From a virus, in IMG/VR virus record IMGVR_UViG_3300032084_000080, positions 1 to 34,135 of that record: a stretch of 34,135 nucleotides of DNA; one strand, written 5' to 3'. The notes beneath the pieces were generated by a model that was not told the origin of the DNA, did not search any database, and saw nothing but the letters and a program-made list of their open reading frames with translations. Of this stretch, positions 1,625 through 16,313 are shown one piece after another. Position numbers and translations under genes: made by a program. Numbering within the stretch: position 1 is the stretch's first letter; every line of letters begins with the position of its first letter.

Positions 1625-1644
1625 TATGGCCTCCAGTTATTGGG

Positions 1645-1653
1645 CCGATTATA
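1645..1653 (-). promoter_or_regulatory. Repeated TATAATCGG box, copy 1 (putative -10)
   Basis: The minus strand reads TATAATCGGCCC just after the stop of the 918-aa gene and about 20 bases before the adaptor ATG. It contains a perfect -10 hexamer. No TTGACA-like -35 is visible 16-18 bases upstream. The same 9-mer occurs at three other gene starts (4441, 6340, 28047). Confidence 0.5.
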
Positions 1654-1656
1654 CCA

Positions 1657-4413: not shown

Positions 4414-4440
4414 AACCAAATCCAGTCAAGTCACAAAGGC

Positions 4441-4449
4441 CCGATTATA
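4441..4449 (-). promoter_or_regulatory. Repeated TATAATCGG box, copy 2 (putative -10)
   Basis: The minus strand reads ATGATATAATCGGGCC in the short gap between TerL and the 918-aa gene. The upstream context GTCAATATGA resembles that of copy 4 (GTCAATAAATGC). The ATG of the downstream gene is about 28 bases away. Confidence 0.5.
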
Positions 4450-4458
4450 TCATATTGA

Positions 4459-5742
4459 CTACACAATGCCTTGTAGGTTACGACGTAATGGCTCACCCCA
4501 GCTAGATGATGTGGGCTTGTACCCGACAGCCAGGTATCGCAGCGCATCGGCGCAGTGAGAGGTCCAGTCGTGTAGAGGTCGTCCACGCCAGGTCATGCCC
4601 TTGTCGTCATAGTCTCGACGGTACTGCCGGATAGCATCAATGCCTCGCTCGCACTTCTCCTCATCGAACCAGCACCTGGGTAGCATGGAGCGCACAGACT
4701 GTATACCATCATCAACCATTAACTGCGGGGCTATAGTGATTGGCCTCACCCCCAGGGCGCCAAGTGTCTCCAGTCGAGACTTACCTGAGCCTAGCTCTCT
4801 CACCCTGACATCGTGCGGCAGTACATGGCTCTCGTATATGTAGCCCTTTGAGTTTAACAGGGCGACATAATGGTCCAGACCTACACCACTGCTCTCATAG
4901 TAGTCTATAAGGCGCACCTCAGCCCCTACAAACTGCGCAAACCAGATAGAGGTACTATCGCCTACCCCCAAGTCCCAGGCCGTTACAACGCCAAGAGCGC
5001 GGTCGTATGGCACGTTGGTTAGCCTGCCCTCAGCATTGGCCTCTCGCATCTCGAAAGCGTAATAGGCGCCATCAGCGTGGACCTTCATCTCACCGTCCCA
5101 GATATGGCCGTAGTCATCCGGGCGCAGCTTAAAGTCTTCTTTGCGCTCGTTGTCTAGCACCTTTGGGAAGTATGGGTTGTCCTGCCAATTGATCTCGCAG
5201 ATCTTGCTGTCTTGAGGAGGGCTGACGCGGAATCGTCGGTGAGTGGCTGAGTGCTTTGTCTCAGGGTTCCAAGTTACCCAGATCTCTGAGTTATCTTCTC
5301 GGACCGTAGGGATTAGCTTCTGCCAGGCTGCATCAGATACGCCCTCGGCCTCATCGACCCAGGCGATAATGATTCTAGCCTTTGACTTGATAGAGTCCAA
5401 GTTGCGACGCAACCCGGCAAAAACGTAATTAATGCGCCCGTCTTTGGACCTGACAAACTTCTCGCCAATCTCGTAATAAGATAGAAGCCAGGGGACGCTC
5501 TTAATCGCCGACTTGATCTCCTCCAGGGACGACTCGTCAAGCGAGTTGAGATGCTCTCGTGCGCAAAGGATCTGGCCGCTTAGACCTGACATCCCGTGAC
5601 GATACCCGGCGACTGCAGTCATCAGGGCGAATGATCTAGTTTTACCTGAGCCTCGACCGCCGTATGCCCCCCTGTAACGTGCCTCGCCCTCGAAGACATC
5701 AACTATCTTGGGCGGTAATCTGATCTCTGCGGTATCAGTCAT
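4459..5742 (-). CDS. terL: Terminase large subunit
   Basis: This is 427 aa from the ATG at 5742 (MTDTAEIRLPP). The frame is open 46 codons further upstream, but that stretch overlaps TerS and looks like a shadow. The start overlaps the TerS stop by 8 bases. The ATPase part has Walker A GGRGSGKT at residues 28-35 and Walker B IIIAWVDEAE at 124-133. The C-terminal RNase H-like nuclease shows acidic positions in AWDLG and in the end motif DWTSHCADALRYL. The length is normal for a compact phage terminase. The protein drives ATP-dependent DNA packaging at the portal and cuts the concatemer. The packaging type cannot be settled from sequence alone. Confidence 0.95.
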   Translation of the reverse strand: MTDTAEIRLPPKIVDVFEGEARYRGAYGGRGSGKTRSFALMTAVAGYRHGMSGLSGQILCAREHLNSLDESSLEEIKSAIKSVPWLLSYYEIGEKFVRSKDGRINYVFAGLRRNLDSIKSKARIIIAWVDEAEGVSDAAWQKLIPTVREDNSEIWVTWNPETKHSATHRRFRVSPPQDSKICEINWQDNPYFPKVLDNERKEDFKLRPDDYGHIWDGEMKVHADGAYYAFEMREANAEGRLTNVPYDRALGVVTAWDLGVGDSTSIWFAQFVGAEVRLIDYYESSGVGLDHYVALLNSKGYIYESHVLPHDVRVRELGSGKSRLETLGALGVRPITIAPQLMVDDGIQSVRSMLPRCWFDEEKCERGIDAIRQYRRDYDDKGMTWRGRPLHDWTSHCADALRYLAVGYKPTSSSWGEPLRRNLQGIV

Positions 5743-6157
5743 CCGAACCAGGCAGTGGCTCTGCGACCAGCTTAATGATTGTTGGCTTGAACGAGTCATC
5801 AGATGATGTGTGATCGATCTGCTGCTTGTCTCCATACTTCCTGGGCGACATCCTGGCGACCTTCCACTTCCTGCTGTCAATGCGCAGCTTGGCTATGTTA
5901 ACGGCGTTAGAGTCCACCCCCTCACCCAGCTCATCCGCTATGTCAATGATCTCATCAGCGTAGAAGTCAGCCTGGCAATCACGGGCTCTCGCGTACTGCT
6001 CCGAAAATGCGACTTTGTCAGGCTCTGTCAACCATTTCATTAACGTAGACATAACAGGCATGCTGTCATCCCTGCATATCTGCCTGGCGCTCTCACCAAG
6101 GGATAGCCTGCGACATATGTCAGCGGCTAGTTCATCTGTAAATATTGAAGGTCTCAT
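5735..6157 (-). CDS. terS: Terminase small subunit
   Basis: This is 140 aa, starting MRPSIFTDELAADICRR. The N-terminus is a helix-turn-helix (residues about 6-45, with LSLGESARQICRDD and STLMKWL) like the DNA-recognition domain of Sf6-type small terminases. A central helical oligomerisation part (YADEIIDIADEL and RKWKVARMSPRKYGDK) and an acidic tail follow. The WKVARMSPRKYGDK core is very typical of this family. The ATG overlaps the stop of the small upstream gene by four bases, and the C-terminus overlaps TerL by eight. It should recognise the phage pac or cos site and load TerL. Confidence 0.92.
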   Translation of the reverse strand: MRPSIFTDELAADICRRLSLGESARQICRDDSMPVMSTLMKWLTEPDKVAFSEQYARARDCQADFYADEIIDIADELGEGVDSNAVNIAKLRIDSRKWKVARMSPRKYGDKQQIDHTSSDDSFKPTIIKLVAEPLPGSDD

Positions 6158-6339
6158 TTTAGGTCACAAGTGCAGTTAACCTCAAAACACCGGCATATTC
6201 TTTCCATGCGCTGGTGAGTCAGGTACAGCACCTCAATCATCATTTGCTTATCCCGGTCCACTAACGCCTCAGCGTAGTCTCGGACCAGGTCCATATCGGC
6301 CTCATGGACGTCTTCATCTGTCGTCAGTTTAATCATCAT
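6154..6339 (-). CDS. Small acidic hypothetical protein upstream of TerS
   Basis: This is 61 aa, starting MMIKLTTDEDVHEADMDLVR. It is predicted to be helical and ends with a Cys cluster (CRCFEVNCTCDLK), which could bind a metal. It overlaps TerS by four bases, so it is probably translated with TerS. A TATAATCGG box lies only a few bases before the ATG, so a transcript from that box would be leaderless or nearly so, or the box is not the promoter of this gene. I recognise no family. Confidence 0.7.
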   Translation of the reverse strand: MMIKLTTDEDVHEADMDLVRDYAEALVDRDKQMMIEVLYLTHQRMERICRCFEVNCTCDLK

Positions 6340-6348
6340 CCGATTATA
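6340..6348 (-). promoter_or_regulatory. Repeated TATAATCGG box, copy 3 (putative -10)
   Basis: The minus strand reads GGGGGTATAATCGGATGATG. The box abuts the start of the 61-aa gene, so any transcript begins at or very near its ATG. The preceding G-run is not shared with the other copies. Confidence 0.4.
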
Positions 6349-6375
6349 CCCCCAACAGATAATTTACGCACTAGA

Positions 6376-6630
6376 CTAAACCTCAGTCCCAAAAAGCTCT
6401 TCTGCCATAGTGGCAAACTCCCGGAAGCCCTCGTAAGGCTCCAGGGCTGATACCTCATCCACCAGGTTGGCTACGTCGTCTTGCCAGTCAATCAGCTCAT
6501 CGCGGAACTGTGATCGTGGCACGTCAGTGCTCATCAGCGACTCAATTATCGAGTCAAAGCGAATGACCTGATCATTGAGCTCCCACTCAAAGCAGTCTTC
6601 AAGACTTTTTGATAAGTTTAAATTTTCCAT
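6376..6630 (-). CDS. Hypothetical acidic protein at the start of the late region
   Basis: This is 84 aa, starting MENLNLSKSLEDCFEWELND. It is acidic and mostly helical, with no Cys pair and no membrane segment. A ribosome site AGAGGTG lies 5 bases before the ATG. It is one of the first genes after the long promoter-bearing gap at 6631-7029. Its place before TerS suggests a late-region or packaging-associated role, but no family is recognised. A frame opening further upstream (to 6781) overlaps it and is not supported. Confidence 0.7.
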   Translation of the reverse strand: MENLNLSKSLEDCFEWELNDQVIRFDSIIESLMSTDVPRSQFRDELIDWQDDVANLVDEVSALEPYEGFREFATMAEELFGTEV

Positions 6631-6705
6631 AAGACACCTCTATGTCAATAGAATAAAGGCATTGTCCATGTTTTTGCTGCGGATGTAAACCTTTCGGATT
6701 ACAGA

Positions 6706-6774
6706 TTAGACCAGGTCTTCCCTCGCTATTGCCAGAAGACCTATAGTTACTACAATTACTCCGTACAGTACCAC
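6706..6774 (-). CDS. Possible 22-aa hydrophobic microprotein
   Basis: A GTG at 6774 begins VLYGVIVVTIGLLAIA-type sequence and ends at TAA 6708-6706. The product is almost entirely one membrane-spanning segment with a charged end (REDLV). A GAGAGGTG ribosome site lies 4-5 bases upstream and closely matches the site before the next gene (ATAGAGGTG). It is the first possible reading frame after the putative late promoter. The short length and GTG start keep this tentative. Confidence 0.35.
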   Translation of the reverse strand: MVLYGVIVVTIGLLAIAREDLV

Positions 6775-6802
6775 AATACACCTCTCAGTTAATTAGGTGC
6801 GC

Positions 6803-6831
6803 ATTGTATAGATACCCAGATATGATCGGAA
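6803..6831 (-). promoter_or_regulatory. Candidate late promoter with weak -35
   Basis: The minus-strand -10 is TACAAT (6808-6803, inside TATACAAT). The region 17 bases upstream is TTCCGA (6831-6826), a poor -35. Downstream of the -10 comes GCGCACCTAATTAAC, which resembles the CACCTCAATCAA found after the -10 of both strong promoters at 8571 and 15265. A good -10 with a weak -35 suggests an activator-dependent late promoter. It lies between the early terminator and the late genes, the right place to start the head/tail transcript. Confidence 0.45.
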
Positions 6832-6868
6832 ATGACAGTTTATTATTTAGCTTATACCATTAATGATA

Positions 6869-6887
6869 TGCACAGTCTCGGTGTGCA
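6869..6887. promoter_or_regulatory. Inverted repeat TGCACA-7-TGTGCA
   Basis: Perfect 6-bp arms are separated by 7 bases, about 40 bp upstream of the candidate late promoter. It could be an operator or activator site for a dimeric regulator. No binding protein can be assigned. Confidence 0.35.
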
Positions 6888-6935
6888 ATAATGACTAAAA
6901 CTACCTAAATGAATGCTGCAATATACATTGTAATG

Positions 6936-6986
6936 CATAAAAAACCCCCCAGCCAAGTACAAAACGGTCTGAGGGGTGGGGGTAAG
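6936..6986 (-). terminator. Intrinsic terminator ending the early transcript
   Basis: On the minus strand a G/C-rich hairpin (ACCCC/CCCCTCAG arm, loop, CTGGGGGG arm) is followed by TTTTTTAT. It lies after the last small gene (7030-7206) and before the late promoter region. Two stem pairings are possible, so the exact arms are uncertain, but the U-tract direction is clear. Confidence 0.7.
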
Positions 6987-7011
6987 GCTCGCAACGACTT
7001 TTAACGAGCCT
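6985..7011. other. Hairpin AGGCTCG/CGAGCCT before the terminator
   Basis: Perfect 7-bp arms surround a 13-base loop between the stop of the 58-aa gene and the terminator. It probably stabilises the 3' end of the early transcript or assists termination. Confidence 0.45.
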
Positions 7012-7029
7012 AGAAAATTGTGTCGGATA

Positions 7030-7206
7030 CTACTCTTCTAAATCAAACTCAAAGTGTTCGTCAAAGCCATTCATTATGTATTCCTGTATGCATTGCTTTA
7101 TTGTCTCAGGATTAGGCGTATCGGTATGTTTGTGCGCCCTGTTGTAGCCAGCCTCTGCACCCACTTCCACTATTTGCTCGATCAATTGATATATTTTTAC
7201 TCTCAT
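7030..7206 (-). CDS. Conserved-looking small phage protein, 58 aa
   Basis: The frame starts MRVKIYQLIEQIVEVGAEAG and continues YNRAHKHTDTPNPETIKQCI before an acidic end. The middle motif (Y-x4-KHTDTP-x-x-E-x-I-x-x-x-I) resembles a family of very short phage proteins of unknown function. The product looks like two helices with an acidic tail. The ribosome site is weak, so it may be coupled to upstream translation. It is the last gene before the terminator at 6936-6986. The coherent composition and perfect fit between stop and terminator support it as real. Confidence 0.75.
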   Translation of the reverse strand: MRVKIYQLIEQIVEVGAEAGYNRAHKHTDTPNPETIKQCIQEYIMNGFDEHFEFDLEE

Positions 7207-7284
7207 AGCATCACTCGACTTGGTAAATAATAGTCCGTTGCAGCTCCTGGTGGACTAGGCCAGGTCAAAAGGTCAAGGGAGACC

Positions 7285-7485
7285 TCAGCTTAGGGGGTAA
7301 ATCATTAGCTCGTACCCTACAAAAGCGGCTAGCAAAAGGGTCGTGGCAATAAGGTGTATCTTATACACTACTACCGGCTCAGTGACCCACGCTCTAAAAC
7401 TACTGGCTTTTGCCTCGATGTAAGACTGCCTGATGGCTTTGTCAGCGTAAGCGTTAGCCTCATAAATTAGCGTTTTAACGTCCAT
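7285..7485 (-). CDS. Small membrane protein, 66 aa
   Basis: This starts MDVKTLIYEANAYADKAIRQ. One transmembrane segment lies near residues 42-62 (IHLIATTLLLAAFVGYELMI). The N-terminal half is soluble and helical, so the topology is probably a single-pass membrane anchor. The ATG overlaps the upstream stop by one base (TAATG), indicating coupling. It belongs to the cluster of short genes behind the strong promoter at 8571. It could alter the host membrane early in infection, but no family is recognised. Confidence 0.7.
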   Translation of the reverse strand: MDVKTLIYEANAYADKAIRQSYIEAKASSFRAWVTEPVVVYKIHLIATTLLLAAFVGYELMIYPLS

Positions 7486-7940
7486 TAGTGACTCCCCATA
7501 ACTAGTCTGTCTAAATGGTTAAGGTCTTGGAACGAATCCATTACAAGCTCTTCCATACTAGGCTCCAGGTACATGTATAACTGATGCCTGATCTCTTCAA
7601 GAAAATCTGGGGTATCCAGTATTGCCTCAAAGTCGTCCAGAGCCTCCGACAAGTAAGCATCATTGTCAACATCTTTAGCGTTCCTGTCAGCAGCATCGCG
7701 GAACATTGCTGCAGCCATCCTAGAGGTAGCGTCCTCACTGTATATCGCTTCTAATGCCAGCAAGGGCTTATCGCTAACCGTGTGAGGAAATACGTCATCC
7801 ATCCAAGTCGGGTGGGTGATTAACCAGAGAGCGATAAGTCCGTCCTTAGTCTTGTCTGGCAGTTCCTGATAGCTGCCCTCCCACATTGGGGTTTCGTCGC
7901 GTATAAGGCCAACAGCGTCATTCAATACTTTGTAAGACAT
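7485..7940 (-). CDS. Hypothetical acidic protein, 151 aa
   Basis: I use the ATG at 7940 (MSYKVLNDAVGLIRDETPMW); a GTG two codons earlier is less likely. The ATG overlaps the stop of the 55-aa gene by one base (TAATG). The protein is acidic and helical, with LPDKTKDGLIALWLITHP and a SEALDDFEAILDTPDF region. There are no Cys pairs, membrane segments or catalytic motifs. The acidity and early-cluster position fit a host-interacting or DNA-mimic-type protein, but that is speculation. Confidence 0.7.
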   Translation of the reverse strand: MSYKVLNDAVGLIRDETPMWEGSYQELPDKTKDGLIALWLITHPTWMDDVFPHTVSDKPLLALEAIYSEDATSRMAAAMFRDAADRNAKDVDNDAYLSEALDDFEAILDTPDFLEEIRHQLYMYLEPSMEELVMDSFQDLNHLDRLVMGSH

Positions 7941-8107
7941 TAGCACACCCCCAGATTAACGCAGTCATAGTATTCCATGTTAGAGACTATCCCGTACAAA
8001 ATAAGCAGTATAGCCGCGCCTACGAATCCAGCCCTAGATTCAGCCACTTCTTGCAGCTTGGCTTCACGGGCCTTGATATCCTTTAAACAACATTCATTGA
8101 TTCTCAT
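7940..8107 (-). CDS. Small single-pass membrane protein, 55 aa
   Basis: The frame starts MRINECCLKDIKAREAKLQE and carries a transmembrane segment AGFVGAAILLILYGIV (about residues 26-41), then a short tail ending CVNLGVC. An excellent ribosome site (AAGGAG, 7 bases before the ATG) and a TAATG overlap with the next gene support it. An amphipathic helix before the membrane segment and several Cys residues (6, 7, 49, 55) are visible. It is the second small membrane protein of this early cluster. Function unknown. Confidence 0.75.
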   Translation of the reverse strand: MRINECCLKDIKAREAKLQEVAESRAGFVGAAILLILYGIVSNMEYYDCVNLGVC

Positions 8108-8108
8108 A

Positions 8109-8414
8109 TTATTCTCCTTGTATATTTGTTTTGATTACATCTATAGCATCTGCATTGGAATTCTCATAGAGAGTATTAAGCACTTTGCTTCTGACAGATA
8201 ACAACCCTTCTTCAGATACATCCTTGCCAACTAAAATCGAATCATCCGTAGGCTCCGTTAAACTCCAATGCAAAGCAAAATCAGCAAGCTCATGGCTGTA
8301 CTGAGGGTATTTGTCTATTAATTTATGCAACAGTTCGCGTGAAGGAGTTTCTGACGCGTAGAAAAACTGGTCCAATATGTCCTCTAATGATGGAGTCGGT
8401 AGAGTGCGAGTCAT
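8109..8414 (-). CDS. Hypothetical protein, 101 aa
   Basis: This starts MTRTLPTPSLEDILDQFFYA after an ideal AAGGAGAT ribosome site. It is helical and acidic. The central segment LIDKYPQYSHELADFALHWS (about residues 32-51) looks like a compact helical pair of the kind seen at the N-terminus of some small HTH or antitoxin-type proteins. There is no recognition helix that I can defend. It is in the early cluster behind the promoter at 8571 and ends two bases before the next gene. Confidence 0.7.
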   Translation of the reverse strand: MTRTLPTPSLEDILDQFFYASETPSRELLHKLIDKYPQYSHELADFALHWSLTEPTDDSILVGKDVSEEGLLSVRSKVLNTLYENSNADAIDVIKTNIQGE

Positions 8415-8436
8415 TTTGAATCTCCTTTAATTTTTT

Positions 8437-8538
8437 CTAGCGCACTCTTTTTGCGGTTACCCCAGTAACAATTCCAGTCACCCAGCAATCACTGCCAGCG
8501 CACTTTACCCAAACTTTTTGATTGATTTGATATTCCAT
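8437..8538 (-). CDS. Very short protein, 33 aa, perhaps truncated
   Basis: The frame MEYQINQKVWVKCAGSDCWV continues for 13 residues and ends at TAG. It begins 26 bases downstream of the predicted transcription start of the strong promoter at 8571-8599 and follows an AAAGGGCAG ribosome site. The sequence reads like the first beta strands of an SH3-like or KOW-like small phage protein (V-x-V-K-C ... W-V-T-G-I-V), which normally continues for some 20-30 residues. It may therefore be cut short by the amber codon. Identity unknown. Confidence 0.5.
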   Translation of the reverse strand: MEYQINQKVWVKCAGSDCWVTGIVTGVTAKRVR

Positions 8539-8570
8539 TTTGCTGCCCTTTGTTGTTTGATTGAGGTGTA

Positions 8571-8599
8571 ATAATACCCCCCAACAAATAAACTGTCAA
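8571..8599 (-). promoter_or_regulatory. Strong sigma70-type promoter for the small early genes
   Basis: The minus strand has TTGACA (8599-8594), a 17-base spacer and TATTAT (8576-8571). This is a perfect -35 and a 5/6 -10 at ideal spacing. Two bases after the -10 comes CACCTCAATCAA, identical to the sequence after the early promoter at 15265. It drives the genes from 8538 down to 7030. Confidence 0.85.
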
Positions 8600-8624
8600 G
8601 CTTTTCGGTTACAAATAGATGAAA

Positions 8625-9101
8625 TTAATTATATTTTGCGCTTTTAATTAGGTTATCTTTAGCCCACAAAGGTTGCAAATTTGATGGGTGGTTAATTACA
8701 TCAAAATCATTTATACCATTATCTAAAAAATCTTTTATTGGCCTAATGTGATCAATATGCCATTCCTTCCTATTCTCCCAGCTCATCCCCTCACAAAATA
8801 AAGACTCTATCCGACTAACAACAAGATTATCTTTCTTGATCAGGAGCCATCTTAAATGCGCTCTTATCCTGTTAGATACTTTAGTCCTTGCGTCATCTCT
8901 CTTGCAGTTAAAGCAAGTCTGGCATTCCAAAAACCTTTTCTTTGGGCCGACACCTGTAACGCATTCACACCCATCATCTTGCCACAACCCGTCGCTTAAA
9001 TATGATTCCCCGCTACCAAAACATAAATCACACCGGCTGCTAGGACGGTAATAATCAAAATCCAAAAAAGAAAGCATTTTCTGCCCGCAACATATATCCA
9101 T
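8625..9101 (-). CDS. HNH endonuclease (free-standing, homing type)
   Basis: This is 158 aa, starting MDICCGQKMLSFLDFDYYRP. Several Cys pairs (RCDLC at 23-27, CEC at 45-47, CQTCFNC at 60-66) suggest an N-terminal zinc-binding part. The HNH core is WHIDHIRPI at 114-122, then VINHPSNLQPLW with N141 and the final KDNLIKSAKYN. This is the classic D-H ... N ... N/H layout. The gene is visibly richer in A+T than its neighbours and sits directly before a strong promoter, which fits a mobile gene. A packaging-associated HNH is less likely because it is far from the terminase genes. Confidence 0.85.
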   Translation of the reverse strand: MDICCGQKMLSFLDFDYYRPSSRCDLCFGSGESYLSDGLWQDDGCECVTGVGPKKRFLECQTCFNCKRDDARTKVSNRIRAHLRWLLIKKDNLVVSRIESLFCEGMSWENRKEWHIDHIRPIKDFLDNGINDFDVINHPSNLQPLWAKDNLIKSAKYN

Positions 9102-9121
9102 AATATTCCCCGTTATTTAAA

Positions 9122-9511
9122 TTAATTATATGACACTGGCTCATAGCTCTCATCAGCGGTCATTTTCTTATGCTCTTCTCTGTAGTGCTTGGCTATCTCT
9201 GCCCTGAGCTTTTTGTTGGTTGGCATCAGCACCTGCCACTTCTCCCTAAGCATATCCAGGTGGCCCTGGCCTAGATGCGACTCCAGCCATACACTGAAGT
9301 CGAGAGGGTTGGCCGTGAACACTTTATGGCAGTAGTGGCACAGGCATAGTGCGTTATCCATAGACCAGCGCACCGACTTAGCCGCCCTGCCCCAGATATG
9401 TGCGCACTCCATCCTGCCATCTTGCTTGCCGCAGTGCTCGCACTGGAATCCAGCCTTTTGCCTTACTACGTCACTAAACCATTTGTCTGCAGCGTCGCGC
9501 TTAATCGGCAT
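9122..9511 (-). CDS. HNH/zinc-finger recombination-type nuclease
   Basis: This is 129 aa, starting MPIKRDAADKWFSDVVRQKA. It has zinc ligands CEHC (24-27) and CHYCH (58-62). H38 in ECAHIWGR and N53 in MDNALCLC complete an HNH-like fold. This family occurs in phage recombination regions next to DUF3310 and NinB-like genes, as here, and is related in style to NinG/Rap-type proteins. The C-terminal half is a Lys-rich helix. The start overlaps the DUF3310 stop by 11 bases. Nuclease activity is plausible, but substrate specificity is unknown. Confidence 0.75.
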   Translation of the reverse strand: MPIKRDAADKWFSDVVRQKAGFQCEHCGKQDGRMECAHIWGRAAKSVRWSMDNALCLCHYCHKVFTANPLDFSVWLESHLGQGHLDMLREKWQVLMPTNKKLRAEIAKHYREEHKKMTADESYEPVSYN

Positions 9512-9800
9512 CGTCGAATATCTCGCTGCTGATTAGCTTCGCCAGGTACCACTGAGCTTTCTGCAGGTCCTCGACCGGGTTGTTCTTATAGGTATACCTC
9601 CACAGATACTTCATGCAGTTGCCTTTCAGATATCCGCGAAATGCCTCTGGGGTCATAGACTCCTCAATGGCCTCAATGCACTCGATGCCGCCGGTTCTGT
9701 AATGGCTTGGGCTGTTTACCGCATCATCTTCTGGCCAATCTTCGATAGCCGGTATAGATTCCTTTAATCGTCGCCAGTCTTCGCTTGTAGCGTGCTTCAT
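9501..9800 (-). CDS. DUF3310 family protein
   Basis: This is 99 aa. Its signature is HYRTGGIECIEAIEES (around residues 33-48), followed by GYLKGNCMKYLWRYTYKNN and the helix DLQKAQWYLAKLI. This pattern defines the small DUF3310 family, common in the nucleotide/replication region of phages and sometimes called nucleotide kinase-like; its biochemical role is unproven. An AGGAG site precedes the ATG, which overlaps the stop of the zinc-finger microprotein (ATGA). Confidence 0.9.
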   Translation of the reverse strand: MKHATSEDWRRLKESIPAIEDWPEDDAVNSPSHYRTGGIECIEAIEESMTPEAFRGYLKGNCMKYLWRYTYKNNPVEDLQKAQWYLAKLISSEIFDDAD

Positions 9801-9976
9801 TCTGTATTCTCCTCAATTTGGATTTTAATTTCATCAGGCGTATCAAGATCGCAGCGATGACATAAACCATAGCTATCACCGTGATCATCAATCCAATACG
9901 ACAGAGCGATTCCACATTCACAGTAAAGCCTTTTAATGTGGGTCTTCTTTTTATGCAGTGAGATAACATCACCCAT
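9797..9976 (-). CDS. Zinc-finger microprotein, 59 aa
   Basis: The frame starts MGDVISLHKKKTHIKRLYCE and has CEC (19-21) and CHRC (39-42), a likely zinc-ribbon pair. The tail is acidic (DEIKIQIEENTE). The ATG lies inside the end of the phosphoesterase gene and the TGA overlaps the ATG of the DUF3310 gene. It therefore fills the gap exactly, in a coupled array. A longer competing frame on the same strand (9724-9972) is hydrophobic and overlaps DUF3310 by 77 bases; I consider that one spurious. A short zinc protein in this setting could bind DNA or a host protein. Confidence 0.8.
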   Translation of the reverse strand: MGDVISLHKKKTHIKRLYCECGIALSYWIDDHGDSYGLCHRCDLDTPDEIKIQIEENTE

Positions 9977-11147
9977 CCAGAGCCTCCACTGTAATCTTCA
10001 CCCTGGAGTCTTCACCGTATTTTTTATGGTAGACAATAGCCGTCATACTCCGCTCTGATCCAAATCCCGAATCTGAGTGCCATTGGTCTGTAGAAGTAAG
10101 GCTGCCGAACCAGGAGAATTGCATGCTGCCATACTCCCGGCTGACATGGTGGTGGATATGCCCCAGGAGACAGTACCGATTCTTATGCGATGACCACTCG
10201 TTGTCCAGATTCTTGATAACCGTCTGTAGTATTTGCTCTGGCTTTATCCGGTCCCCGTGGTGGTAGACCCACATATTATTTCCCCACTCGTAATGCAAAA
10301 ACTTTGAGTAGTTTTCTAGCACATTTACCCTGGGCTCTTTCTGATACAGAATCTCCAAGCAGCTAGATAGATGACAGGCCATGTCGCTGTCATGGTTGCC
10401 CCTCACATTTACTACGATAACATTCTTGTGAACTGTCAGCATCTTGTCGATTAGCATCTGAAACAACCTACCGGCCAGTTTAAATGTCTTACCAATGCGC
10501 GTATCTACATCTACCCTGGTTCCAGCGGTGGTCTCGTTTTTGCTTGAGTCGGCGTGGAAGAAGTCACCCACGTTTAACAGTATCGCGGTCTCACAGTCAC
10601 CTACTCTGACTAACAGCCTATCAACAGCGTCAATAAGTACCTTGGTCGCTATCTTGATATCCCAGTCGTCGTTGTCCAGCTTGGTAGCAGCGTCCGCGAG
10701 CATCCCGTAGTGGTGGTCACCGATGATATAGGTGGCAAGATAGTCGGCATTAACTTTCTTTGGGGCTTTCACCGGCTTCTTAAATCCAGCCAGGTCATCC
10801 TTCATGCCCTCCATCATCGCCTCAACCTTCTCTTGCAGGCTGCGCTTCAATGGTTCTTGGATTATCCACTGTAGGGCTATATCACCCTCGGAGTTGAAAG
10901 CGGTTGAAACTCGCTTCGCCTCAAAACCCTCCATAGTCTCATTGTCTACACTGCGATGCGGTGCCACCGCCTTACTAGCAGCCCTGCCCTCAATAGCTCT
11001 TAAAGTCCTATCTACGGTGCGCCGATCCAACCCTAGGGCTTTCGCTGCCTTGTTGTTGCTTCCGTGATTTATAACAGCTTGGCATATCTCGGCCTGGCGT
11101 TCAGTTGCTGCAAAGCTAATTAACTTACTGGCGCTTAGTTTGGACAT
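9969..11147 (-). CDS. HTH plus calcineurin-type phosphoesterase
   Basis: This is 392 aa. Residues about 15-60 hold a helix-turn-helix (NNKAAKALGLDRRTVDRTLR). A linker follows, and residues about 135-390 form a metallophosphoesterase with all motifs: GDHH 143-146, GDFFH 194-198, GNHD 250-253, HHGD 296-299 and GHIHH 329-333. Such HTH-phosphoesterase fusions are common in phage replication regions. They resemble SbcD/Mre11-type nucleases in fold, with the HTH likely directing DNA binding. The start follows an AGGAAC site after NinB. The substrate is unknown; DNA end processing is a reasonable guess. Confidence 0.9.
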   Translation of the reverse strand: MSKLSASKLISFAATERQAEICQAVINHGSNNKAAKALGLDRRTVDRTLRAIEGRAASKAVAPHRSVDNETMEGFEAKRVSTAFNSEGDIALQWIIQEPLKRSLQEKVEAMMEGMKDDLAGFKKPVKAPKKVNADYLATYIIGDHHYGMLADAATKLDNDDWDIKIATKVLIDAVDRLLVRVGDCETAILLNVGDFFHADSSKNETTAGTRVDVDTRIGKTFKLAGRLFQMLIDKMLTVHKNVIVVNVRGNHDSDMACHLSSCLEILYQKEPRVNVLENYSKFLHYEWGNNMWVYHHGDRIKPEQILQTVIKNLDNEWSSHKNRYCLLGHIHHHVSREYGSMQFSWFGSLTSTDQWHSDSGFGSERSMTAIVYHKKYGEDSRVKITVEALDG

Positions 11148-11148
11148 T

Positions 11149-11595
11149 CTATTGTTCCTGCTTTCGCTTTAATTCAGTGTACTCATTGTACTCTGGTAAA
11201 GATAAATAAACACCTTTCTCAATCGCCCAGGCATAGACCTGGTCCATGAAAAAACACATCTCTCCTTTCTTCAGGCTTGCGGTGCTTTGTATCTGGTCTT
11301 TGAGGGTAGTCTGCCCAACCTTAATTGTTTTGGTCACCAGAAACTTATGCTTCATCATCCACTTAACGCCATCTGGCGTAGCGTCAGGGATTTTCTCTAT
11401 AAACTTGTCACTCAGCTCCCGGCACCACTTGTGAAATAATGCGTTCTGGTCCAGCGTCCTGGTATCCACCCACGGCTCCAGCTTGATTGATAGAGGGATA
11501 GAGTAATCCCAGTCCTGCAGGCGCTTGATGAGGTGCGGAACCTTCCTTTCCACTTCAGTTGCGTGGGATATTTTAACGTGGTCTCCCTGGCTCAT
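11149..11595 (-). CDS. NinB-like recombination protein
   Basis: This is 148 aa, starting MSQGDHVKISHATEVERKVP. The key pattern is DTRTLDQNALFHKWCRELSD (about residues 44-63), matching the R-S-L-D-Q-N signature of lambda NinB/Orf, and a final segment with KGEMCFFMDQVYAWAIEKGV. NinB (Orf) is a recombination mediator acting with SSB and annealing proteins. The presence of an Erf/exonuclease/SSB-like cassette upstream fits this. The start overlaps the upstream gene by four bases. A ten-residue stretch, IKRLQDWDYS, is nearly repeated in the exonuclease. Confidence 0.75.
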   Translation of the reverse strand: MSQGDHVKISHATEVERKVPHLIKRLQDWDYSIPLSIKLEPWVDTRTLDQNALFHKWCRELSDKFIEKIPDATPDGVKWMMKHKFLVTKTIKVGQTTLKDQIQSTASLKKGEMCFFMDQVYAWAIEKGVYLSLPEYNEYTELKRKQEQ

Positions 11596-11897
11596 AGCTT
11601 CACCCTCAAAAACTTGTCCGACAGCTTCATTGTGCTAGTCTCCAGGCGATCATATAGGCTGGCTTTCGACTTACCAATACCGCCACATGCGTCGTCAACT
11701 TCCCTTACCTGCCTGTCGCCAACCTCAGCCCTGCCTACCATCCTGGAGTGCATTGTCTTGTTCTGAACGCCGGTCAGTATTGATATCTCGCGCAGCGTGT
11801 ACAGCTTGCCAGTCACCAGGTTGTCATGGGTTCCAGTGAACTTGTATCTTCTTGGATGTTTGCCAGACGACCTGGGCTCTAATCGCTTGTCAGGCAT
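11592..11897 (-). CDS. HTH-like hypothetical protein, 101 aa
   Basis: This starts MPDKRLEPRSSGKHPRRYKF. The N-terminus is basic. A segment LYTLREISILTGVQNKTMHS (about residues 32-51) has the shape of a helix-turn-helix, followed by RMVGRAEVGDRQVREVDDAC. It may bind DNA at the replication or control region. It overlaps both neighbours by about four to eight bases. No firm family is assigned. Confidence 0.65.
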   Translation of the reverse strand: MPDKRLEPRSSGKHPRRYKFTGTHDNLVTGKLYTLREISILTGVQNKTMHSRMVGRAEVGDRQVREVDDACGGIGKSKASLYDRLETSTMKLSDKFLRVKL

Positions 11898-12261
11898 TCT
11901 TCAGCTCCCCGTCATAATAAAAGCCAAACTTGTCAAGATAATACTGTTTCATAGACAATTGCGCATCTGTATCCAGCCAACTAATATCAGTCATCTGCAT
12001 GTCTATAGACTTGGCCCTGATGCTTTCATTCTTGCCAGCCTTCTTGGCCATCGGAGAGCCGCCCTGGTTCTGCGCCCTAGCTAGCCAAGAGTTAACAAAG
12101 CGTTTAATACCCTGCTTTGTTTTGCGTTTAGTTGGATTCGCGTCGCACCAGGACTCCATAGCCATGAGCTCTTGGTGAACATTGACAGCAGGATACGCTC
12201 TCTGCCAAGCGATAGTGTCAGCCTCATCTGGCTGCCAGTCTTCTTTAGTATTTAGTAGCAT
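11890..12261 (-). CDS. Replication-protein-like C-terminal domain protein, 123 aa
   Basis: This starts MLLNTKEDWQPDEADTIAWQ after a GGGGGAA ribosome site. The motif WQRAYPAVNVHQELMAMESW, then NPTKRKTKQGIKRFVNSWL (about residues 19-60), is the conserved end of many phage replication initiator or DnaT/lambda-O-like proteins. Here it stands alone without the usual N-terminal DNA-binding domain, so the gene may be a reduced version. It is the best candidate for a replication factor in a genome with no helicase, primase or polymerase. The role is inferred. Confidence 0.65.
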   Translation of the reverse strand: MLLNTKEDWQPDEADTIAWQRAYPAVNVHQELMAMESWCDANPTKRKTKQGIKRFVNSWLARAQNQGGSPMAKKAGKNESIRAKSIDMQMTDISWLDTDAQLSMKQYYLDKFGFYYDGELKNA

Positions 12262-12270
12262 GGTTCCCCC

Positions 12271-12762
12271 TTACCCGTGGTTAGCAAATTTGCCGTGTAA
12301 TTTTTTGCGCATTTCCTTGATGGCCTGCTCCGCATCACTGATATCATTGTGCAGCCCACAATAATAATGTTTTGAATCACAGCGCATCTTAGCTATCCAC
12401 TTACCCGCAGGCTTATGCCAGCATACGCCCTTCACGCCACTTGTGCTGTTTTTATTGATCGACCTGTTGTGCTGGTTTTCCCGCGCAGACACAGCGCGTA
12501 AATTTTCAATCCGGTTATCATGGCGTTCGTTGTTGATGTGGTCCAGGTACTTAGGCATGTACCCGTGGTGATATAAAAAAATAAGTCTGTGTTGATAATA
12601 GCAAACTCTATTTACGGCGCAAATCTTGTATAACCCTTTGCCGCCGCGTATTAGCTTGCCAGACTTTCGGCCATTCCCTTCGCGCCAGTACAAGTTACCA
12701 TCACGGTACTCAAATTTTTCCTTAATTTCCTCTAATAACTGCTTTTCGCTTAGCTCTTTCAT
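12271..12762 (-). CDS. HNH endonuclease with AP2-like DNA-binding region
   Basis: This is 163 aa from the ATG at 12762 (MKELSEKQLL), with a GGGGAAG ribosome site five bases upstream. A longer frame opening at 12837 overlaps another gene. The HNH core is HRL (58-60), YLDHINNERHDNRIENL (72-88) and ENQHNR. Residues about 105-150 (SGVKGVCWHKPAGKWIAKM) are AP2-like and should bind target DNA. This is a typical free-standing phage homing endonuclease. It overlaps the end of the 51-aa gene by 41 bases and is A+T-rich, so it probably inserted here. It is unlikely to be essential. Confidence 0.9.
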   Translation of the reverse strand: MKELSEKQLLEEIKEKFEYRDGNLYWREGNGRKSGKLIRGGKGLYKICAVNRVCYYQHRLIFLYHHGYMPKYLDHINNERHDNRIENLRAVSARENQHNRSINKNSTSGVKGVCWHKPAGKWIAKMRCDSKHYYCGLHNDISDAEQAIKEMRKKLHGKFANHG

Positions 12763-12877
12763 CGCACTTCCCCGTTGGTTTAGAAACCTTAGTATCTTTG
12801 TTTCCGAAAATATTGTCAAAGTTTTTATCAAACTCAACCTTATTGGTCGGTCGCTGTTTACTTCCTTTACCGCTCAT
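12722..12877 (-). CDS. Short basic protein (MSGKGS type), 51 aa
   Basis: The frame starts MSGKGSKQRPTNKVEFDKNF and continues DNIFGNK before a basic tail. The opening and the F-D-x-N-F-D-x-I-F motif are characteristic of a tiny phage protein family of unknown role. A GGGAG ribosome site precedes the ATG. The last 41 bases overlap the HNH gene, so the natural C-terminus may have been replaced when the HNH gene arrived; the residues after FGNK look unlike the family core. Confidence 0.75.
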   Translation of the reverse strand: MSGKGSKQRPTNKVEFDKNFDNIFGNKDTKVSKPTGKCDERAKRKAVIRGN

Positions 12878-12880
12878 CTC

Positions 12881-12976
12881 TCACTCCCATGGCTCGGCAA
12901 GCCTCGCCCAGTATTTAATAAATGTTTCTTTATATTTACTTTTTTTCTTATTATTTGCAAGACGATATAACCCTTT
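12881..12976 (-). pseudogene. Start-less 31-codon frame next to an A7 run
   Basis: The codons between a TAG at 12979-12977 and the TGA at 12883-12881 read smoothly and end KYKETFIKYWARLAEPWE, which looks like a real protein end. There is no ATG, GTG or TTG in this frame. A TTG with an AAGGG site in a neighbouring frame would join it if a run of seven A bases were one base longer. It could be a frameshifted remnant, a slippage-expressed peptide, an assembly error or chance. Confidence 0.3.
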
Positions 12977-13298
12977 CTACTTAGCAAAGTAGATTTTTGA
13001 ATCTGAGGGCAAAGCGACTCAGTGACTAATTTGTGCTCGTATTTAGAATCACGCCATCCTGGCCGTCGTTATTTCCTGCTCGGCAGTCAAACCGATTAGG
13101 AGGTGCTAATAGAGGGGTCACTCTCGATCATGGGTTATTAATTCCCACGCCACACACCCGAACACTTGAGAGAAAAAGAAAGGGAGACCTAGTGTACTGT
13201 ATCGGACAGTATGGTAAACTTGCCTTTCTTCTTCTTCGCACAAGAAGTATAAGCCTTTCCCCGGCTTACTGTAAAGCCCCCGCAATGGGGGTTTTATT
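12977..13298. other. Structured non-coding region (about 320 bp)
   Basis: No credible gene lies on either strand. Visible elements include a hairpin CTACTT-agca-AAGTAG (12977-12992) followed on the plus strand by a short T-run, an inverted repeat at 13195-13211, a hairpin CTTCTT-cgcac-AAGAAG (13231-13247), a hairpin TAAGCC-7-GGCTTA (13250-13268) and a plus-facing terminator. The motif GAGGTGCTAAT near 13099 resembles the sequence beside the promoter at 15265. The stretch could hold a small RNA, an operator region or an origin. Confidence 0.45.
13195..13211. promoter_or_regulatory. Inverted repeat TACTGT-5-ACAGTA
   Basis: Perfect 6-bp arms are separated by five bases (atcgg). The 17-bp size suits a dimeric HTH repressor. 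It lies about 90 bp from the end of the HTH gene, so it may be an operator for that protein. No -35/-10 pair at good spacing is evident around it. Confidence 0.4.
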
Positions 13299-13303
13299 TT
13301 ATT
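13273..13303 (+). terminator. Intrinsic terminator facing the plus strand, at the HTH stop
   Basis: Stem AAAGCCCCC-gcaat-GGGGGTTTT (one G-U pair) is followed by TTTTATTTTATT on the plus strand. On the minus strand only CTTTAC follows the hairpin, so it would be weak there. It overlaps the stop codon of the minus-strand HTH gene. Confidence 0.65.
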
Positions 13304-13502
13304 CTTCTTTTAGCTGGCAAAACTGATCCAGCGTCAAGTCAAATATCTTACATAATCCCTGCACAGTGTGCAGCTTCATGTTTTCCTGCTTACGCCATTG
13401 AAACACTCTCTGGCGGCTTACGTTCATTAAAGTGGCCAGGCGGCTAGAATTGATGTTATTTAGCTCCTGGGCGGTTATTAAGCACTGTCCTGCATTAGTC
13501 AT
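13299..13502 (-). CDS. Small HTH (XRE/Cro-like) transcription regulator
   Basis: This is 67 aa, starting MTNAGQCLITAQELNNINSS. Residues about 19-55 form a helix-turn-helix: SRLATLMNVSRQRVFQWRKQ, then KLHTVQGLCKIFDLTLDQFC, matching the XRE/Cro fold. The size is that of Cro-type regulators with no oligomerisation or cleavage domain. It is the only small repressor-like gene in the genome, and without an integrase it more likely times early/late switching than maintains lysogeny. An AGGAAT site precedes the ATG. Two plus-facing terminators flank it. Possible targets are the palindromes at 13195 and 15268. Confidence 0.8.
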   Translation of the reverse strand: MTNAGQCLITAQELNNINSSRLATLMNVSRQRVFQWRKQENMKLHTVQGLCKIFDLTLDQFCQLKEE

Positions 13503-13573
13503 AATCAGTATTCCTGTGTTATCCTTGGGACGTAGGGCTGTTCCCCCGGTCCTACATTCTCCTATGGTAGTTT

Positions 13574-13611
13574 GCCCCCTGAAAGCACTTGTGCCGTAAG
13601 GGGGCTTTTTT
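13574..13611 (+). terminator. Strong intrinsic terminator facing the plus strand
   Basis: Stem GCCCCCT/AGGGGGC (13574-13580 with 13599-13605) has an inner stem GCAC/GTGC and is followed by TTTTTT on the plus strand. The minus strand has no T-run after it, so minus-strand early transcription should pass. It lies between the SSB-like gene and the HTH gene. What plus-strand transcript it ends is unclear. Confidence 0.75.
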
Positions 13612-13613
13612 AC

Positions 13614-13910
13614 CTAGAACGGGATGTCTTCATCGAGCTGTTCAATGCTCATATCAGCCTGCTTTGCAGGTGCTGCTGCCTGGCCGTCAGTGTAAATCAC
13701 CTTCACATTACCCAAGATTGGCGTCTGGACCTTAGCGTCGCGCTCTTCTTTGGTGACCGATTGAGATATAAATCCATTGTTCTCATATTGGTCTTGCTGA
13801 TCGGTATCCACAAACGTAGTCAGGTCAAGATAAGTACCTTTTGCTCCCTTGTACAGGCGCGACTTGTCGATTTTGGTAACATCAATTCGTACTGATAATC
13901 CTACTTTCAT
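13614..13910 (-). CDS. Small single-stranded DNA-binding-like protein
   Basis: This is 98 aa, starting MKVGLSVRIDVTKIDKSRLY. The body is beta-rich (YLDLTTFVDTDQ, GFISQSVTKEER, LGNVKVIYTDG), followed by a Gln/Ala linker and the tail IEQLDEDIPF. The acidic DEDIPF end is the hallmark of SSB proteins, where it binds recombination and repair partners. The gene sits directly after the exonuclease (ATGA overlap) in the Erf/exonuclease operon, where SSB-like proteins are expected. The OB fold is inferred, because the sequence is shorter than cellular SSB. Confidence 0.75.
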   Translation of the reverse strand: MKVGLSVRIDVTKIDKSRLYKGAKGTYLDLTTFVDTDQQDQYENNGFISQSVTKEERDAKVQTPILGNVKVIYTDGQAAAPAKQADMSIEQLDEDIPF

Positions 13911-14530
13911 TTTAGCTTCTCCACTTGGTTTAAAATTTCCGCCACGGCCTTATCGACCTCGGCAGACAGTTTTGCGATATAGTCATCATCGCGTTCTACG
14001 CGCACTAGAACGTGCGGCATTTCTGGATGGTAGGCAAAGAAGTCCCACCACTCCCGTTTGGTTATCCACATACAGCCTTGGATTTGCTGCCAGTATTTCT
14101 TGACCCCAACTTGCGGGTCTCTGAGATAGCTCACCATAGTCTTAGGCGCAGGACATTTAATCTCCAAGCCTCCCTCATCGCCTATTAGGCCATCAGGCGA
14201 ACATCCGAATTCAAAGCTAGTGTCGAGAATAAAGCCAGTCTCAATTACATCATTACCAGAGTAGTCCCAGTCTTGCATCCGTTTGATAAACGCATAGGCC
14301 TCCCTAGCTTCTGGCTCTAACGCAGTGCCGCGCTCCATCCACTCGGTAACGTGGAACGGCTCAGATTGCCCTGTAAGGCGCTCTGCGATCAATTCATTGA
14401 TGTACCCATCAGCAGAGGTGCTTGGCTTCCCAGTCTGTGTTATTAGCTTGGAAAACATGCTTGCAGAAGGCTTGCCCAGTCTTGCAGCAAGCCACTCTGG
14501 TGAACCCTGCTCATGGTCCAGGATGATCAC
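13907..14530 (-). CDS. YqaJ/lambda-type 5'-3' exonuclease
   Basis: This is 207 aa from a GTG at 14530 that overlaps the Erf stop (GTGA). Motifs of the PD-(D/E)XK exonuclease are clear: QGSPEWLAARLGKPSAS at 8-24, ERGTALEPEA at 66-75, CSPDG with D113, and LEIKCP with E123 and K125. The protein should resect double-stranded ends to give 3' single strands for Erf annealing. The length matches YqaJ-type viral recombinases. It contains IKRMQDWDYS (residues 82-91), almost the same ten residues as in the NinB-like protein. Confidence 0.93.
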   Translation of the reverse strand: MIILDHEQGSPEWLAARLGKPSASMFSKLITQTGKPSTSADGYINELIAERLTGQSEPFHVTEWMERGTALEPEAREAYAFIKRMQDWDYSGNDVIETGFILDTSFEFGCSPDGLIGDEGGLEIKCPAPKTMVSYLRDPQVGVKKYWQQIQGCMWITKREWWDFFAYHPEMPHVLVRVERDDDYIAKLSAEVDKAVAEILNQVEKLK

Positions 14531-15090
14531 TTCTTAGCCTCTAGAGCGGCAACAGCGCGGTCATAATGTACAGCTAGTATCTGATCAACAGATCGCACCT
14601 TGAGCCACTTGCAAAACTTATCGCTGTCGGCACCAGTCTCATCAAGTAATTTCTTGATGGCGATGATCTGGTCATCAGAGACAACCTTCTTGTCATCACC
14701 GCGCAGCATTGCAGATTCTGCATCATCGTCTGCAGTTGGGATGCCAGCGATAGACTGCAGGGCATAGCGTCTTGCGTAGGTTATTGCTGACCCTGAAGCC
14801 TGGGGGTCTTTCTTAACAGTTGGCAGGGTGTATTCCATCTCTAGCCATTGACCAGATATGTGCATCAGGCGCGTAGATACGCCAACACCGTTTTCATTGC
14901 TTACCGGGAACTGGGTATAGCTTAGGCCGTTATCAGCAAAGGGCTGCTTGATCGCCTTAATTACAGACGTTAGATCGGCATAGCTAGACTTAAAGAAAGG
15001 ATTGGCGCTGTCTTTAACAGCACCCCCCATTTGGGATTGTGCAGCACATAGTGCGCTGGCTAACTCGTTAATTGATTCACTTGATTTCAT
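14527..15090 (-). CDS. erf: Erf-family single-strand annealing protein
   Basis: This is 187 aa, starting MKSSESINELASALCAAQSQ. The ERF domain covers about residues 5-130, with FFKSSYADLTSVIKAIKQP, GVGVSTRLMHISGQWLEM and the conserved SGSAITYARRYALQSIAGI. The C-terminal part is a short helical tail. Erf forms rings that anneal complementary strands during recombination or circularisation. It is the second gene behind the early promoter, with a perfect GGAGG site, and overlaps both neighbours by three to four bases. Confidence 0.95.
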   Translation of the reverse strand: MKSSESINELASALCAAQSQMGGAVKDSANPFFKSSYADLTSVIKAIKQPFADNGLSYTQFPVSNENGVGVSTRLMHISGQWLEMEYTLPTVKKDPQASGSAITYARRYALQSIAGIPTADDDAESAMLRGDDKKVVSDDQIIAIKKLLDETGADSDKFCKWLKVRSVDQILAVHYDRAVAALEAKK

Positions 15091-15233
15091 TGTTGACCTC
15101 CTACAGTCTGTTCTTTTGCGTACCGCTCACCATAACCAACATAATAAGCCTCTGATTGCCCTTCCAGGGCCTGATAACCTACAACGCAGTCGTACTCACC
15201 GCGCTCCAGATCGTTTAGATCGTTGATTCCCAT
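15087..15233 (-). CDS. Leading early microprotein, 48 aa
   Basis: The frame starts MGINDLNDLERGEYDCVVGY and continues to GQQ. A GGAGG ribosome site sits six bases before the ATG, and the TGA overlaps the ATG of Erf (ATGA). It is the first gene after the strong early promoter. It is acidic, Tyr-rich (six Tyr) and probably folds as a short helix-strand unit. I recognise no family, but its place and signals are those of a real, highly expressed gene. Confidence 0.75.
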   Translation of the reverse strand: MGINDLNDLERGEYDCVVGYQALEGQSEAYYVGYGERYAKEQTVGGQQ

Positions 15234-15264
15234 AATTGCCTCCTACAGCATTGATTGAGGTGCT

Positions 15265-15293
15265 ATTGTAAAGCTTTACGGCTACTCCGTCAA
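15265..15293 (-). promoter_or_regulatory. Early sigma70-type promoter
   Basis: The minus strand has TTGACG (15293-15288), a 17-base spacer and TACAAT (15270-15265). The next bases are AG then CACCTCAATCAA, identical to those after the promoter at 8571. It starts the Erf operon, about 30 bases before the leading gene. Confidence 0.85.
15268..15279. promoter_or_regulatory. Palindrome GTAAAGCTTTAC in the early promoter spacer
   Basis: A perfect 12-bp palindrome overlaps the -10 and the adjoining spacer. A repressor bound here would block RNA polymerase directly, so it is a good operator candidate. The 67-aa HTH protein is a possible binder. A half-site-like TGTAAAGC occurs near 13270. Confidence 0.55.
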
Positions 15294-15313
15294 CACTTTC
15301 AGTAACAAGCAGG

Positions 15314-15339
15314 CAAAAAAAAGCCCCAATTAAGGGGCT
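15314..15339 (-). terminator. Intrinsic terminator at the end of the late transcript
   Basis: On the minus strand the stem AGCCCC/GGGGCT with a short A/T loop is followed by TTTTTTTT. It lies between the endolysin stop and the early promoter and cleanly separates the two halves of the genome. Confidence 0.9.
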
Positions 15340-15406
15340 GCGGACATAAGTTGGACTTTGTGTCCGTTAATACGACCAGATCGCAGGGCATGTTCTATAT
15401 GGAACC

Positions 15407-15751
15407 TCAGTATGACCAGATGACAGGAATTGAGTCCCTTGTGTCTACATGGATAAACGTCTTGGCGACCCCTATGCCATTAAACCCCATCTCCTGGGCG
15501 TGCTTAATGATCTGGTATGCCTCGTTGCCATTGTTGATCTTGATGTCTGCGGCAATTCCGCGTGCGTGTGTGCCTGGCTTAGACTTCGCTTTTTCAATAC
15601 TGTGGCCTTCTGGATCGCGGTAGCCACTGGTAATGATAAACGGGAACCCGCAAGCATGGCGCAGCGAGTCAAGAGCCCACAGGAACTCATCAGACATCTC
15701 GTTGTTGCCGGTCTCCTGGCAATCAAAGTCTGACAGCTTAAAATAGCGCAT
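15407..15751 (-). CDS. M15A-type peptidase endolysin
   Basis: This is 114 aa from the ATG at 15751 (MRYFKLSDFD), which overlaps the upstream stop by one base. A TTG six codons earlier is less likely. Zinc ligands of the D-Ala-D-Ala/L-Ala-D-Glu peptidase family are present: SGYRDPEGH, then THARGIAADI (H62, D69) and FIHVDT (H101). The protein should cut peptidoglycan crosslinks at lysis. It is short, a catalytic domain only, with no wall-binding part and no signal peptide, so a holin is needed. It is the last gene of the late transcript, far from the holin-like genes at 30-31 kb. Confidence 0.92.
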   Translation of the reverse strand: MRYFKLSDFDCQETGNNEMSDEFLWALDSLRHACGFPFIITSGYRDPEGHSIEKAKSKPGTHARGIAADIKINNGNEAYQIIKHAQEMGFNGIGVAKTFIHVDTRDSIPVIWSY

Positions 15752-16154: not shown

Positions 16155-16156
16155 AT

Positions 16157-16312: not shown

Positions 16313-16313
16313 A

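Follow-up and report, generated by a model that had tools for sequence, protein, structure and literature searches.

The promoters at 8571 and 15265 on the minus strand of a 34,135-base IMG/VR contig of a marine phage (the window, by which we mean the whole stretch of DNA that was analysed) probably each open an exchangeable-gene slot, both slots being built to one plan. It looks as though the promoters share 12 bases because both head such slots, in which the cargo is joined to the promoter via an identical short mRNA leader. The parts of a slot would follow each other as a host-type sigma70 promoter, an ACCT discriminator, a leader of the pattern CANTCAA-NN-AA-NN-AAGG and one (here two) small cargo genes. 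Behind the cargo there would usually be a GC hairpin, its loop of the UNCG or GNRA type, and then conserved genes with their own RBS and sometimes a second copy of the leader.

The window encodes a terminase, a portal protein, a major head protein, an ERF annealing protein, a YqaJ exonuclease and an endolysin. No integrase was noticed on inspection of its ORF list, no tRNA was found in it and no part of it, including the leader, matched Rfam. Promoter 15265 opens the recombination and replication operon directly after an intrinsic terminator, and promoter 8571 opens a run of small genes which ends at the late promoter at 6803 (Table 1). Three HNH-type endonuclease genes are located in the early region (8625-9101, 9122-9511 and 12271-12837, minus strand), one of them immediately upstream of slot 2. 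Octadecabacter Antarctic DB virus 2 (major head protein 66%) is among the short-genome relatives identified by terminase and head protein. Contigs named Rhodobacteraceae, Porticoccaceae and others were found among the relatives, with no consistent host.

Table 1. Coordinates of the slot elements and neighbouring features in the window
Feature	Position	Strand	Remark
Late promoter -10 (TACAAT, 6808-6803) and leader GCGCACCTAATTAACTGAGAGGTGTATT up to GTG	6772..6808	-	YANTYAA-like start at equal offset
First conserved gene behind slot 2 (MRINECC..., 55 aa)	7940..8107	-	leader-like RBS
Slot-2 cargo gene 2, 101 aa	8109..8414	-	no significant family match
Slot-2 cargo gene 1, 33 aa (MEYQINQKVWVKCAGSDCW...)	8437..8538	-	
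Leader CAATCAAACAACAAAGGGCAGCAAA	8539..8563	-	putative transcription start at or near A8562
ACCT discriminator of slot 2	8564..8567	-	promoter-specific half of the 12-mer; identity counts in text
Slot-2 sigma70-type promoter, TTGACA (8599-8594)-N17-TATTAT (8576-8571)	8571..8599	-	
YqaJ-family exonuclease	13907..14530	-	partner recombinase; Pfam PF09588, E 2.4e-20
ERF-family single-strand annealing protein	14527..15090	-	Pfam PF04404, E 3.8e-24
Conserved 48-aa gene behind slot 1 (MGINDLNDL...)	15087..15233	-	
Empty junction of slot 1, CAATCAA/TGCTGTAGGAGGCAATT	15234..15257	-	leader start fused to RBS of the conserved 48-aa gene
ACCT discriminator of slot 1	15258..15261	-	
Slot-1 sigma70-type promoter, TTGACG (15293-15288)-N17-TACAAT (15270-15265)	15265..15293	-	
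Intrinsic terminator upstream of slot 1	15322..15339	-	terminates the late operon at its lysis end

The shared 12 bases and their conservation

Both promoters follow the minus-strand pattern TTGAC-N18-TANNAT-N2-CACCTCAATCAA (8599-8557 and 15293-15251), where the two bases after the -10 are TA in slot 2 and AG in slot 1 and CACCTCAATCAA itself occupies 8568-8557 and 15262-15251 respectively. They are the top two sigma70-type matches within positions 1-20000 (11/12 and 10/12). The 12 identical bases that the preliminary description noticed behind them are confirmed by these coordinates, and the window has no further exact copy of the 12-mer. By our own estimate, the chance that two of about seven good promoters carry it at an equal offset is of the order of 1e-5 or less. 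A looser match that had been pointed out near 13099 (ATTAGCACCTCCTAATC, minus strand) is absent from the promoter-scan listing and has no recognisable hexamers, with no -35/-10 pair at the right spacing, and was therefore treated as chance rather than as a third site.

Relatives were fetched by protein (ERF, head protein and small terminase), which gave 236 loci, all of them metagenomic assemblies; the motif could not bias this sample because retrieval was by protein similarity. For an unbiased test, promoters were picked by hexamers, RBS and ORF without use of the core, and the non-redundant sites (n=29) had a mutual similarity below 80% in the -35 to -10 interval. In 19 of the 29 promoter-RBS-ORF sites exact CANTCAA was observed with its first letter at the eighth base behind the -10 (an offset of 7 nt), and in 22 it was within two mismatches at that offset. 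In the unbiased set the spacer between -35 and -10 carries almost no information, CA-TCAA, the next AA and AAGG are nearly invariant, and the conservation extends through the Shine-Dalgarno bases, beyond what composition would give. The offset was 7 in every match among the ERF-linked promoters, and the consensus in the relatives is CANTCAANNAANNAAGG. Permuted cores (n=24) each found at most 4 promoter sites and at most 1 hairpin site, compared with 77 and 7 for the real core. Furthermore, a scan of whole records returned 1-3 copies of the pattern in 10 of 20 records and zero in a reversed control. The cultured phages of the collection that were tested, Octadecabacter virus 2 and Pq0 among them, do not carry the element. 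The preliminary description had proposed searching beside the promoters of related phages, and had named relatives with the promoters but not the 12-mer as what would speak against it; promoter and 12-mer were found to be kept together, and the claim survives.

The 12-mer appears to consist of CACCT, in which ACCT is conserved only at promoters, and the first seven bases of the leader, because ACCT is confined to promoters while CAATCAA also occurs without one. The identity of ACCT is 68% between unrelated promoter sites versus 2% at promoterless hairpin sites. The leader opens with CAATCAA, and CAATCAANAANNAAGG recurs without a promoter immediately behind a GC hairpin. As an example, the hairpin CCGCCCCCTACGGGGGG is followed directly by the leader CAATCAAAAACCAAGGGGAATAAT and an ATG start codon. 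Promoterless copies in the unbiased set comprise 7 hairpin-flanked ones found by an automatic rule and about 7 more recognised by eye. Both the fixed distance of the leader from the -10 and its promoterless copies behind hairpins can be read directly from the DNA. Since the CA is invariant, transcription is likely to start at or next to it (8562 and 15256), at the ninth base after the -10.

These promoterless copies, together with conservation that continues into the Shine-Dalgarno bases, make it unlikely that we are looking at a core-promoter element only. Such an element would treat ACCTCAATCAA as a discriminator and initial transcribed sequence tuned to the host RNA polymerase, with a long distance from -10 to start, fast escape and no later role in the RNA. 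It would account for the constant 7-nt offset from the -10, for the promoter specificity of ACCT and for the similar YANT which late promoters have at an equal offset. Among the roles that had been offered for the 12 bases (an operator, a regulator site, an RNA tag or a stability element), a leader acting at the RNA level, nearest to the RNA tag, is favoured because CAATCAA...AAGG recurs behind hairpins and ahead of start codons at places with no promoter.

The operator is disfavoured. A phage DNA-binding regulator, for example the 67-aa Cro/C1-type HTH protein (13299-13502), might be proposed to bind the 12-mer, as the HTH gene is conserved nearby in 40 of the 41 ERF contigs with enough sequence and the element overlaps the start site like many operators. 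Nevertheless the 12-mer shows no dyad symmetry, is found in one orientation only at a constant 7-nt offset and is also present without a promoter, and for these reasons we regard binding there as very improbable. A better candidate for such a site is the palindrome TTTAC-N3/4/6-GTAAA over the -35, observed in 9 of 47 promoter types versus 0.5 expected. Examples in slot promoters of relatives are L024 (2697), L339 and L359. Because its gene is conserved next door, the HTH protein may bind elsewhere on the slot promoters.

A site in the RNA that is read in trans, where a phage or host RNA-binding protein or a small RNA binds the leader and switches the slot genes jointly, would fit the sequence-specific conservation, which exceeds composition and Shine-Dalgarno, and the many unrelated genes which carry an identical leader. 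We rate this as improbable, given that there is no Rfam match and that no conserved partner was noticed. The leader itself was observed to be more accessible than other gene starts (mean unpaired probability 0.785 versus 0.596) at sites chosen on the core itself, whose core identity is thus by construction; shuffled leaders reach 0.732, so that composition explains most of the low structure.

Cargo slots and hairpins

Mapping of the relatives revealed two cargo slots per genome, each with a promoter-leader, a small variable gene, usually a hairpin, and conserved genes, and this layout of the gene order explains the repeated promoter-leader. Slot 1 runs from the promoter-leader through usually one variable gene and usually a hairpin to TGCTGTAGGAGGCAAT, the conserved 48-aa gene and ERF. 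Slot 2 runs from the promoter-leader through a variable gene and a hairpin with or without a leader to conserved genes that continue up to the late promoter. The slot-1 position holds 208-430 nt of cargo and a hairpin in relatives and is empty in the window, L005 and L044. In the window only CAATCAA remains there before a different RBS, which indicates that the whole leader is not obligatory. In slot 2 of the window the hairpin is absent ahead of the conserved 55-aa gene, and the 33-aa gene is found in L339 behind another promoter type.

Across all loci there are 154 unique sites (selected on the core, which is therefore identical among them by construction). They fall into 47 promoter types, and their first genes (median about 82 aa) into 53 families; types and families were found to be freely reassorted. 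Up to 11 first-gene families occur per promoter type, as with the slot-2 promoter type of the window, which precedes 11 different families in relatives, and up to 10 promoter types occur per family. Cargo families also move between slot 1 and slot 2. Slot 2 holds more than 10 different cargos in 21 contigs, and in L108, L326, L109, L115 and L068 its promoter-leader is joined directly to the gene that lies behind the cargo elsewhere. The first gene of slot 1 is common to none of 21 contig pairs with 95-98% identical ERF DNA. The sequences directly show slots that are occupied, swapped or empty between flanks that are nearly identical. For example, L091 and L092 are 100% and 99% identical on the two sides of differing cargo, L045 and L108 are 95% and 96% identical around an occupied and an empty slot 2, and in L003-L007 the upstream part is 97-99% identical and the cargo 23-42%.

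One of ten cargo families gave a meaningful Pfam match (DUF7249), matches in PHROGs were only to PHROGs of unknown function, and nothing of note was found against the PADLOC defence library. An acidic, DNA-mimic character of the cargo received no support, as the median pI was 5.98 versus 5.34 for the small genes of the window (p 0.42).

Twenty-one hairpin sites with a leader were found across all loci. The C of CAATCAA closes the stem in nearly all of them, which leaves the leader unpaired. The loops are mostly UNCG or GNRA (UUCG 16, UACG 10, GCAA 5, GCGA 4), and the stems vary with the pairing kept, as in GCCCT-UUCG-AGGGC beside GCCCC-UUCG-GGGGC. None of 57 hairpins is followed by a T-tract. 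Further hairpins precede the conserved RBS of slot 1 in relatives. GCAGAAG-ATAT-TTTCTGC takes the place of the usual GC hairpin in slot 1 of L003, and its stem sequence also stands before the RBS in slot 1 of L012 and L029, as a different stem at an equal position.

The window itself appears to be a mosaic with the crossover inside the slot-2 promoter-leader, as judged from its alignment with two relatives. Upstream of slot 2 it equals L007 (99% over 150 bp) to about 46 nt 5' of CAATCAA, and from the slot-2 RBS onward it equals L045 (99-100%). The switch falls within the approximately 60 nt of promoter-leader common to all three. A metagenome assembly artefact, in which strains were misjoined at a shared repeat of 50-60 bp, deserves consideration because every relative is an assembly, the repeat length is near assembler k-mer sizes and the slot-2 junction of the window was not seen in another contig. 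Since the identical ordered design is present in more than 40 contigs and several junctions recur across data sets (L017/L063/L064, L007/L010 and L045/L130/L136, for example), we hold an artefact to be highly improbable.

Imprecise joints within the leader were observed in L031, L025, L044 and L068, and they fit a leader which is kept for expression and acts as a recombination seam. They would also fit a pure seam, identical by descent and retained only because crossovers there yield viable products, as would the joining of cargo swaps and empty slots at the element. A seam with no function should, however, drift along with its neighbours, and the leader persists beside promoter spacers that have diverged to about 47-52% identity; a pure seam is therefore unlikely. 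Our reading is that the element is a portable 5' leader and at the same time serves as a recombination seam, and we infer its RNA function from the promoterless copies.

A possible mechanism and known elements

In the portable-leader reading, the transcription start would lie at the invariant CA or beside it, which would place an identical, unstructured, A-rich leader at the 5' end of nearly every slot mRNA. This leader would offer the cargo a ready landing site for ribosomes regardless of its coding sequence, and the hairpin might shield the gene behind it from the cargo. Homology or microhomology for the swap or loss of cargo could come from the conserved promoter-leader and leader-hairpin, probably with help from the ERF/YqaJ recombinase which the phage encodes. 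The leader sequence would be maintained by selection for expression, and its constancy would turn it into a recombination seam. A broader and more tentative proposal is that one standard mRNA leader serves as a universal connector through which an arriving small gene is expressed at once, early and strongly. The two docking slots of each genome might then test new, possibly counter-defence, genes at high turnover, with the annealing recombinase of the phage doing the swapping.

A slot design would account for the rapid exchange of early genes in a small phage with no need to readjust their expression. The promoter-leader at one end and the hairpin at the other could provide a handle on tens of unknown early gene families in marine metagenomes, and early genes of fast turnover are good candidates for interference with host defence or for host takeover. 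The element may also serve as a test case for what maintains a conserved 5' leader: translation, recombination or both.

The moron of lambdoid phages is an additional gene that has been inserted between conserved ones, carries a sigma70 promoter of its own and ends in an intrinsic terminator. The cargo described here likewise has its own promoter and differs in its end, as none of the 57 hairpins has a T-tract and transcription presumably runs on. A transcription operator is a dyad or repeated protein site tied to promoters, unlike the 12-mer, which has no dyad and has promoterless copies.

The element can be likened to the PeSL cassettes of T4 and to the SAS/ESAS of mycobacteriophages, although it falls under neither definition, at least for PeSLs as portrayed in PMC4503421. 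The design works like a cross of the two that lacks defining features of each. By that account, the PeSL (promoter early stem-loop; Arbiol 2010, Comeau 2014, via PMC4503421) is an early promoter with a stem-loop beside exchanged genes, to which a role in modular shuffling among related T4-type phages is ascribed. Within the scope of that account, a host sigma70-type early promoter in an intergenic region of exchanged genes and gene shuffling between close relatives at the motif are shared with our element. PeSLs there combine a stem-loop terminator and a promoter in one motif, whereas here the hairpin lies at the opposite end of the cargo (0/57 with a T-tract) and the conserved part includes the 5' mRNA leader. 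They also belong, by the same account, to T4-like myoviruses, in contrast to an unrelated 34-kb ERF phage and short-genome relatives here.

SAS of Cluster K mycobacteriophages is a 13-bp sequence, GGGATAGGAGCCC, located 3-9 nt before start codons in 11-19 copies per genome, conserved beyond the Shine-Dalgarno and associated with unrelated non-structural genes (PMC3203893, PMC11373665). About half of the SAS copies lie under an upstream element (ESAS) which holds a SigA-like promoter overlapped by 17-bp inverted repeats, for which RNA hairpins were not supported (PMC3203893, PMC11373665). Our element is similarly start-associated and precedes unrelated non-structural genes (53 first-gene families here). 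It differs in sequence (CANTCAANNAANNAAGG versus GGGATAGGAGCCC) and in having, instead of 17-bp inverted repeats over the promoter, a short -35 palindrome in only 9 of 47 promoter types. In addition, SAS/ESAS are not described as bounding swappable single-gene slots, unlike the element here.

The late promoter and nearby observations

The preliminary description read GCG CACCTAATTAAC behind TACAAT at 6808-6803, which is correct, and took this late promoter for a variant of the 12-mer, which stands only in part. The start region is similar, but the promoter belongs to a separate late family, which in relatives reads TATAAT-GCCGCCT-CATTCA and variants and has only the start region YANT in common with the slot promoters. 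The late operon is opened by a probable single-pass membrane protein of 21-35 aa (6774-6706, minus strand, in the window; VVLYGVIVVTIGLLAIAREDLV), conserved at the protein level in about 20 distinct relatives. Its very small size explains why the gene is absent from the ORF list.

A hairpin between CACCT and AGGTG in the late leader is conceivable, the stems slightly exceeding arm-swapped pairs (17 of 3000 shuffles reach the value with all 24 leaders and 35 of 3000 in a thinned set). An anti-Shine-Dalgarno or hairpin role of CACCT in that leader was rejected, as the signal vanishes when only the probably transcribed part is used. At 6229-6240 (plus strand), the minus-strand mRNA of a 61-aa late gene is complementary over 11 nt to CACCUCAAUCA, with which the slot leaders begin on their promoter side; this is probably chance. 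A second promoter-like site is located at 6661-6689 (minus strand), between the late promoter and an 84-aa gene, and both L007 and L068 conserve it, together with a different type of leader, GCCTTTATTCTATTGACAT.
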